Source: Myxococcaceae bacterium (GTDB lineage: Bacteria > Myxococcota > Myxococcia > Myxococcales > Myxococcaceae). From it: a stretch of DNA of 64,000 nt. The position numbers were made by a program, and so were the translations under genes. Positions within the stretch are counted from its first letter, which is position 1; every line of letters begins with the position of its first letter. Shown piece after piece: positions 14,621-16,413 of this stretch. The stretch covers positions 1-64,000 of the forward strand of contig RPRB01000002.1 of the NCBI GenBank assembly GCA_003818285.1, given 5' to 3'. Below the pieces are notes generated by a model. It had not been told where the DNA came from and did no database searches. It worked only from the letters and a program-made list of their open reading frames with translations.

Positions 14621-16315
14621 TCACGGCAGCAGCGAGAGCACCGCACGCTCCTCGACGACCACCCGGCGATGTCGCACCCGCGCGCCGGGGTCTGTCGCGT
14701 CGAGCGCGGCCAGCAGCTGGCGGATCTCCTCCGCCGACGGCTCGCGCGCTTCTGTCGCGGCGGCGCACGCGAGGGCCGCTCGCACCTCCGGCGCTCTTTG
14801 CCCACCCTCCAGCGCGGCCACCGCGGCCTCGACCAGCGTCTCCGGCCGGTGGCCAACCAGCGCCGGCGAGACGCCCACCAGCCGGTACGCGTCGGGGCCG
14901 AAGGGTTCGACCACGAGCCCGGCGCCGACGAGCTGCTCGAGGCGTGCGGACACGCGGGATTCCATCGCCGGAGTGAGGGCGAGCGCCGCGCCGAGGAGAG
15001 GCGCCTCCGCGGGCGCGTCGGCCTCGCGCTCCAGGCGGTGGGCGAGCACCCGCTCGCGGACGGCGTGGAGGTCGAGCACCACCAGGGACCCTCCGGGACC
15101 CTCGCAGACCAGCGCGCGGCCGCGCAGCGTCCCCAGGGGACGGAGGGCGGCGAAGTACCCCGGCGCGGGCGCGGCGTCCCGGTCGGGCATCGCTTCGCCG
15201 TGCGCCGGCGGGCGGTCCTGGACCTCGGGCAGCGGCAGCGGGGCGCCCGAGGCACGGGAGAGGAAGCGCTCCACCGCCGCGGCGTAATCGGGCGAGGGCG
15301 GGGGCCTCCCCTGGCTGCTGGCCAGCGAGTCGCGGAGCACCGCCCGGGAGATGGCGGCCTGGACCGCGTCGGTCACCTCGGCCGCGTCGGCGAAGCGCAC
15401 CTCGAGCTTCTGGGGATGCACGTTCACGTCCACGCGCGAGGGCTCGATCTCCACGAAGAGCACCCCCACCGGCTGCCGGCCCGCGGGGAGCGACGGCGCG
15501 AGGCCGCGGTGCACGGCGAAGTGGAGCGTCCGGTCACGCACGTGCCGGCCGTTCACGAAGACGTAGAGCGACCGCGCCGACGAGAGGCTGAACTCGGGCG
15601 AGGCAATGACCCCGTGGACCCGCAGGCCGAGCCTCCGCTCCTCGAGGGGGAGGAGGAACGGCGCCACCTCGGGGCCGAGCGCAGCGGCGACGCGCTCGCG
15701 GATGTCGCCGGGGCTCGGAGGGAGAACCTGGACGGTGCGCCCCTCGTGCTCGAGCCGGAAGGCGACCTCGGGGTGAGCGAGCGCCAGGCGCAGCACGGCA
15801 TCCTCCACGTGCCTCAGCTCGGTCTCCGCGCGCCGGAGGAACTTCCGGCGGGCAGGCACCCCGCCGAACAGGTCCTCCACCCGGACCTGGGTGCCCGGGC
15901 GTGCTGCGGCCGCGGAGACCCGCGGCTCTCCGTCCTCGAGGCGGACCTCGGTGCCCTCGGGCGCCCCGTGCAGGGCGGTGCGCAGCATCAGCCGGGAGAC
16001 CGAGGCGATGGCCGCCAGCGCCTCGCCCCGGAACCCGAGGGTCCGGATGGCGAGGAGGTCCTCCGCGGCGCGGAGCTTGCTCGTCGCGTGGCGCCGTACA
16101 CTGAGCACCGCGTCCTCGCGGGACATCCCCGAGCCGTCGTCCGTCACCTCGATGAAGCGGGTCCCCCCACCCTCGATGACCACCCGGATGGAGCGGGCGC
16201 CGGAGTCGAGCGCGTTCTCGCCCAGCTCCTTGACCACAGAGGCGGGGCGCTCGACGACCTCGCCGGCGGCGATCTGGTCGATGAGCGCATCGCTGAGGAG
16301 GGCGATGGTCGGCAT
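14621..16315 (-). CDS. mutL: DNA mismatch repair protein MutL (endonuclease motifs degenerate)
   Basis: A 564-residue MutL. The N-terminal GHKL ATPase is intact: IDQIAAGEVVERP, ENALDSGA, DDGSGM, ATSK and TLGFRGEAL. The transducer domain shows VFVNGR and DVNVHPQK. The C-terminal dimerisation domain is present, but the endonuclease motif DQHAxxExxxxE reads D415-L-H-A-V-R-E-R-V-L-A-H and no CPHGRP-like motif is seen near the end (GARVRHRRVV). Endonuclease-free MutL is best known from MutH-containing Gammaproteobacteria. The start at 16315 gives the usual MPTI beginning; an upstream ATG at 16348 is unlikely. Confidence 0.93.
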   Translation of the reverse strand: MPTIALLSDALIDQIAAGEVVERPASVVKELGENALDSGARSIRVVIEGGGTRFIEVTDDGSGMSREDAVLSVRRHATSKLRAAEDLLAIRTLGFRGEALAAIASVSRLMLRTALHGAPEGTEVRLEDGEPRVSAAAARPGTQVRVEDLFGGVPARRKFLRRAETELRHVEDAVLRLALAHPEVAFRLEHEGRTVQVLPPSPGDIRERVAAALGPEVAPFLLPLEERRLGLRVHGVIASPEFSLSSARSLYVFVNGRHVRDRTLHFAVHRGLAPSLPAGRQPVGVLFVEIEPSRVDVNVHPQKLEVRFADAAEVTDAVQAAISRAVLRDSLASSQGRPPPSPDYAAAVERFLSRASGAPLPLPEVQDRPPAHGEAMPDRDAAPAPGYFAALRPLGTLRGRALVCEGPGGSLVVLDLHAVRERVLAHRLEREADAPAEAPLLGAALALTPAMESRVSARLEQLVGAGLVVEPFGPDAYRLVGVSPALVGHRPETLVEAAVAALEGGQRAPEVRAALACAAATEAREPSAEEIRQLLAALDATDPGARVRHRRVVVEERAVLSLLP

Positions 16316-16413
16316 GAGCCCGGCAGACCCTGCGCTACACGAGAGCAACCCCCGCGTGCAACCGCCGACCTCCGGCCAGCGATGGGTCCGGGCTGCCGGC
16401 CCCGCAGGAGAGA

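Follow-up and report, generated by a model that had tools for sequence, protein, structure and literature searches.

Decay of the MutL endonuclease site in Myxococcaceae genomes with no detected MutH

How is mismatch repair initiated when MutL carries a damaged nicking site and MutH is not found? The question is raised by a mutL gene in the window, i.e., the whole 64,000-nucleotide stretch of DNA analyzed here, which comes from a 5.77-Mb draft genome in 502 contigs. This genome belongs to a family represented by 96 genomes (f1), which we take to be the Myxococcaceae and to include Myxococcus xanthus. The main result, well supported by sequence comparison, is that the nickase site of MutL, along with the proposed clamp-binding motif, has decayed across the family, with no MutH found in any of its genomes. 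If mismatch repair works in these bacteria, either its nicking enzyme awaits discovery or repair can do without a dedicated nickase; the initiation of mismatch repair in Myxococcaceae is a testable question.

The mutL gene of the window and its endonuclease motifs

The interval from 14621 to 15080 belongs to a MutL gene on the minus strand and encodes the C-terminal portion of the protein, as seen from the translation of the open reading frame and from profile searches. The gene product is similar to the NCBIfam/Pfam models TIGR00585 (E value of 6.8e-133) and MutL_C (9.7e-11) and combines a GHKL ATPase half carrying the MutL motifs with a MutL C-terminal domain, which assigns it to the MutL proteins, whatever their type. 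The open frame extends from 14621 to 16348 and would encode 575 residues from a TTG codon at 16348; the aligned relatives start at the Met encoded at 16315, which is the start given in Table 1. The C-terminal half is predicted to retain the MutL fold: the structural model of the segment 14624-15217 has a pLDDT of 88.7 and matches the MutL C-terminal domains of Bacillus subtilis, Neisseria gonorrhoeae, and Escherichia coli in the PDB.

Table 1. Location of mutL and of its domains and motifs in the window
Feature	Positions	Strand	Sequence or state	Evidence
mutL	14621..16315	-	564 aa from ATG at 16315	ORF, translation, profiles
N-terminal ATPase half	15386..16315	-	IAAGEVVERPASVVKELGENALD, GFRGEAL, KLEVRFAD; conserved	profile, alignment
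C-terminal dimerization domain	14624..15160	-	MutL fold predicted	MutL_C; model; PDB matches
Motif I region	15098..15133	-	GTLRGRALVCEG; reads GT, with Thr for Gln of (A/G)Q	alignment
Motif II	15038..15073	-	DLHAVRERVLAH; D, H, A, and E kept, Gln of DQHA replaced by Leu	alignment
Motif III region (proposed clamp-binding stretch)	14990..15007	-	EAPLLG versus QxLLxP; motif absent	alignment
Motif IV	14747..14770	-	ACAAATEA versus ACHAAVRA; C kept, H and basic residue lost	alignment
Motif V	14660..14677	-	VRHRRV versus CPHGRP; C, G, and P replaced, H and R unchanged	alignment

Six motifs are described for the MutL C-terminal domain, namely, (A/G)Q (motif I), DQHAxxExxxxE (motif II), and QxLLxP (motif III), followed by motifs IV, V, and VI (PMC2965676); the metal-site motifs are named DQHAX2EX4E, ACR, and CPHGRP (PMC10366529). 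Motifs I to V were scored here. At its C terminus, the window protein reads LSLLP, whereas nearly all sequences in the alignment of the named loci (A2) end in F-x-R. The sequence-only reading, which had described this protein as a MutL without endonuclease motifs in a nongammaproteobacterial lineage, correctly noted that CPHGRP is missing and that DQHA has become DLHA, and neither the translation nor the alignments reveal an active motif at another position. The lineage and the degraded state of the site both stand, but the description as a whole is too strong, as the window copy retains six of the seven core residues (D, H, E, C, H, and R), the exception being the motif V Cys, which is replaced by Val.

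The alignment of 78 MutL C-terminal domains (the window and 77 of the 80 named loci; L061, L090, and L095 were omitted for length or truncation) contains six invariant columns, four in motif II (D, H, E, and R) and two in motif V (H and R). All six are retained in the window, so the site is damaged rather than erased. The window's own MutL may not be dead, and it is the least certain case of loss in the family. Motif II does lack its final Glu, as the same reading had stated, but the use of this residue as an argument for loss is unsound. This position is occupied by Glu in only 4 of the 23 sister-family MutLs (His in 10, Gln in 7, and Asp and Ser in 1 each), and because most of these relatives lack it in an otherwise complete site, the residue is not diagnostic and was rejected as a marker of decay.

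Extent of the decay and descent of the gene

The protein search finds MutL in 94 of the 96 family genomes, including that of the window. No MutL match is found in G019 and G076, two nearly complete genomes, the former of which has MutS1. Seven core residues (D, H, E, C, C, H, and R, the first six being the metal residues) were scored in 88 comparable sequences, obtained from 95 rows representing the 94 genomes (MutL of G118 is on two contigs) by leaving out 5 rows without C-terminal columns at contig ends as well as G006 and G018, which have a gap in motif IV. In the alignment, all seven residues are present in none of the 88 family MutLs versus 22 of 23 in the sister families. The second position of motif II never holds Gln or Met, the Pro of motif V is likewise absent from all 88, and motif III keeps its Gln in 7 and its Pro in a single sequence. 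Specifically, 67 of the 88 retain the six metal residues without the motif V Arg, which is replaced by Thr in 62 and by other residues in 5, and the remaining 21 lack at least one metal residue. The window and G001 differ from this majority in having the motif V Arg and a Val at the place of the motif V Cys.

The motif V Arg is described as catalytic in PMC10366529, in which the R406A and R406T variants of Aquifex MutL are severely impaired in nicking, with DNA binding uninfluenced, and the R500T variant of Thermus MutL does not complement a mutL strain. Therefore, much of the family naturally has a MutL equivalent to an engineered impaired mutant. Since every comparable family member (88 of 88) shows related decay, it goes beyond chance, and an error of sequencing or of reading frame in the window's mutL was rejected on the same grounds. 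A second intact MutL was also rejected, except in a very divergent form: the matches listed, at most three per genome, correspond to halves of a single gene, to fragments of split genes, or, in G009, to a 32-residue stretch. A search of open-license PMC papers returned none that deals with the MutL site in Myxococcaceae.

In the tree of the N-terminal half, all 42 family terminals form one clade with a support of 100, and the window's lineage (G000, G001, and G021) splits from the rest of the family, which has a support of 80. A second, wider tree also groups the sampled family members without outsiders (support of 54) but places the window's lineage inside the family, so its early branching is unsure. 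The mutL neighborhood shares at least the TPR, epimerase, acyltransferase, and sigma-54 activator genes with a genome of family f6, and fewer, at least the acyltransferase and sigma-54 activator genes, with one of family f5. Horizontal replacement of mutL was rejected, given the grouping of the family in the N-half tree and the partial synteny of the locus with sister families.

When pairs with matching N-terminal identity are compared, the family shows the stronger divergence of the C-terminal domain: for example, at 55 to 60% identity of the N-terminal halves, C-terminal likeness is 0.316 in the family (314 pairs) versus 0.507 in the sister families (90 pairs). The median dN/dS is 0.21 in both halves of MutL over 1,004 family pairs, the sister-family values of 0.13 and 0.17 come from 4 pairs only, and the comparison of the window with G001 gives about 0.10 for the N-terminal and 0.22 for the C-terminal half. 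These values show that the C-terminal domain is still under purifying selection.

Several single positions and loci are worth listing. In a set of 90 family rows with a column set slightly different from that of the 88, R411 (in the 15098-15133 region of the window) and V563 (in the 14660-14677 region) are each conserved in 88 of 90 MutLs; the f5 reference has Thr at the former position, and the 23 sister-family MutLs have Pro at the latter. In G023, a single-contig 9.0-Mb family genome, mutL (L055, G023:C1:4895700-4898100) lies in two reading frames encoding pieces of 228 and 533 residues, which represents either a real mutation or a sequencing error.

MutH, MutS, and other candidate enzymes

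A search with the MutH profile (PF02976, E value of ≤1), in which the E. coli control was positive, finds MutH in none of the 96 family genomes; the presence of MutH, which the sequence-only reading had named as an outcome that would speak against it, was thus not observed. A profile built from 11 Myxococcota MutHs gives weak partial matches in 32 of the 96 genomes (E values from 0.0037 to 0.99). Six of these loci were read, and none encodes MutH: one and the same protein, resembling an AMP-forming ligase, recurs in four of them, and the other two contain a frame without the MutH core. By profile search, MutH is present in 3 of the 24 sister-family genomes and in 16 of the 37 genomes from elsewhere in the phylum, so the earlier premise that MutH is a gammaproteobacterial matter is not supported. 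The MutH genes of Myxococcota outside the window's family include L139 to L141 and L290 to L301. In the 11 of 15 MutH loci that were aligned (A3), the core residues D71, E78, and K80, which correspond to the catalytic residues of MutH, are invariant.

Among 35 MutLs from the wider phylum, 11 are degraded and 23 are intact, and one, from G143, ends before the C-terminal domain and is not counted. The sister-family exception, G040 (f6), has Lys for the motif V Arg and has lost the motif II Gln and the motif IV basic residue; with one of the seven core residues missing, it was counted as degraded by judgment. MutH is found in all 12 genomes with a degraded MutL outside the family (the 11 above and G040), whereas an intact MutL occurs together with MutH in 6 of 45 (G036, G041, and four f27 genomes). 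The Fisher value for this association is 2.6e-8, with shared ancestry ignored. Degraded MutLs are spread over several branches of the wider tree, the deep support of which is weak, and the MutL motifs are kept in all 5 genomes examined out of 15 further ones of the same order. Family f1 breaks this pattern, as it has neither a complete MutL site nor MutH. In the f27 genomes (L258, L270, L273, and L281), the MutL endonuclease motifs are kept and the MutH matches are weaker, with E values from 6e-11 to 9e-20.

MutS1 (TIGR01070) scores over the cutoff in 34 of 36 family genomes, with partial matches in G004 and G012, and in 55 of the 60 genomes of the family and the sister families combined. All 31 MutS proteins that were read, 24 of them from the family, contain the FYE or FFE mismatch motif and the Walker motifs. 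PMC6754418 describes M. xanthus clones bearing 96 to 109 mutations that have mutS and recN changes in common, as well as two clones, with totals of 43 and 45 mutations, in which mutS is mutated. The mutS-mutated clones look like mutators, which suggests that MutS-dependent repair is functional in M. xanthus.

Vsr, NucS, and Dam were considered as substitutes, but none of them is general in the family. For Vsr, 12 of the 36 family genomes and 1 of the 24 others exceed the cutoff, and for NucS (PF01939), 1 of 36 and 1 of 24, respectively; in the window genome, Vsr is not over the cutoff and there is no PF01939 match. For Dam (PF02086), 14 of the 24 sister-family genomes show a match at E values of ≤1e-34, and 1 of the 36 family genomes comes close to this level with the best match of the family (G025, 3.5e-34); at E values of ≤0.001, 14 of the 36 have some match, and the window genome has no PF02086 match. 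The neighbors of mutL do not supply a candidate either: the 8 window ORFs scanned include no nuclease and match TPR, epimerase, acyltransferase, sigma-54 activator, SLT, and indigoidine-synthase-like proteins, with two ORFs showing no match.

Possible routes to the nick

The family MutL resembles the endonuclease-type MutLs of B. subtilis, N. gonorrhoeae, Aquifex aeolicus, and Thermus thermophilus in its domain order, ATPase motifs, and predicted C-terminal fold, and the motif II residues D, H, and E are common to them and the window. In contrast to these proteins, motifs I to V are altered in the family, and the full set of core residues is met with in none of its comparable members. The E. 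coli system of MutL, MutH, and Dam likewise combines MutS with a MutL that lacks a complete endonuclease site. However, MutH is missing from the results for all 96 family genomes, and Dam-like matches are absent from the window genome and weaker in some others of the family; motif III, lost in the family, is kept in E. coli (PMC2965676). The NucS/EndoMS systems of Actinobacteria and Archaea also perform mismatch repair without MutH, but the family keeps MutS and MutL, and NucS reaches the cutoff in a single genome of the 36.

In our preferred reading, to which we give about an even chance, MutL acts as an ATP-driven matchmaker and the nick is supplied in trans. Part of the built-in nicking site and the clamp-binding motif would have been lost in the family ancestor, and the catalytic Arg (most often replaced by Thr) or metal ligands in later lineages. 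Like its E. coli counterpart, although in the absence of MutH, MutL would have been retained as an ATP-driven dimer that connects MutS with the enzymes acting after it, and incision would come from another nuclease. The residue losses and their extent, the conserved N-terminal half, the predicted fold, purifying selection, the presence of MutS, and the failure to find MutH are direct results of the comparisons, and from them we infer a loss of nicking, a working repair pathway, and a nick made in trans. Against it, no candidate nuclease emerges from the scanned mutL neighbors or from Vsr, NucS, and Dam, and the six metal residues kept in 67 of 88 sequences are not obviously required by a purely structural role. 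The faster divergence of the C-terminal domain also fits plain relaxation, and the window copy retains six of the seven core residues. That MutS/MutL repair in Myxococcaceae relies on an undescribed MutL-activated nicking enzyme, which would be a third type of incision besides the MutL nuclease and MutH, is a tentative and somewhat doubtful extension of the preferred reading.

The six metal residues retained in 67 of 88 family members might instead belong to an endonuclease that has drifted, with motif V relaxed, and is altered yet active, most plausibly in the window's lineage, where all six invariant columns persist; Thermus MutL with the motif V Cys changed to Ala remained active in vitro (PMC2965676). 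We regard this as rather unlikely for the family, as most of its members carry the Arg-to-Thr replacement that impaired nicking by the Aquifex protein and repair in Thermus (PMC10366529), 21 of 88 have lost at least one metal residue, and motifs I and III have decayed as well. The retention of MutS and MutL with neither MutH nor a general substitute would also be expected if the two proteins used existing strand ends, such as Okazaki ends or those left by ribonucleotide excision, with no dedicated nickase at all. This is an unlikely explanation, to judge from Thermus, in which mutL with a dead Arg position failed to restore repair (PMC10366529). Existing ends therefore were insufficient in that organism. 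Results for E. coli mutH and for other endonuclease-dead MutLs are similar. Finally, MutL might be leaving repair in the family and survive as a relic or in another role, which would agree with the two genomes without a MutL match, one of them (G019) having MutS, with the two-frame mutL of G023, and with the fast divergence of the C-terminal domain. With MutL found in 94 of 96 genomes and a dN/dS of about 0.2, this appears quite improbable; the literature search in open-license PMC papers returned no mutL mutant of Myxococcus.

Related variation is seen in other groups. In two f3 genomes, a Dam-like methylase match is located immediately next to mutS on the same strand (G037:C90:9221-12631 and G056:C196:3528-4975); both keep the MutL endonuclease motifs, and no MutH was found in them. 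The Gemmatimonadota MutLs L075, L127, and L138 have DVHGRS or DVHGRA at the place of CPHGRP, with Asp for the metal-binding Cys and with H, G, and R kept.
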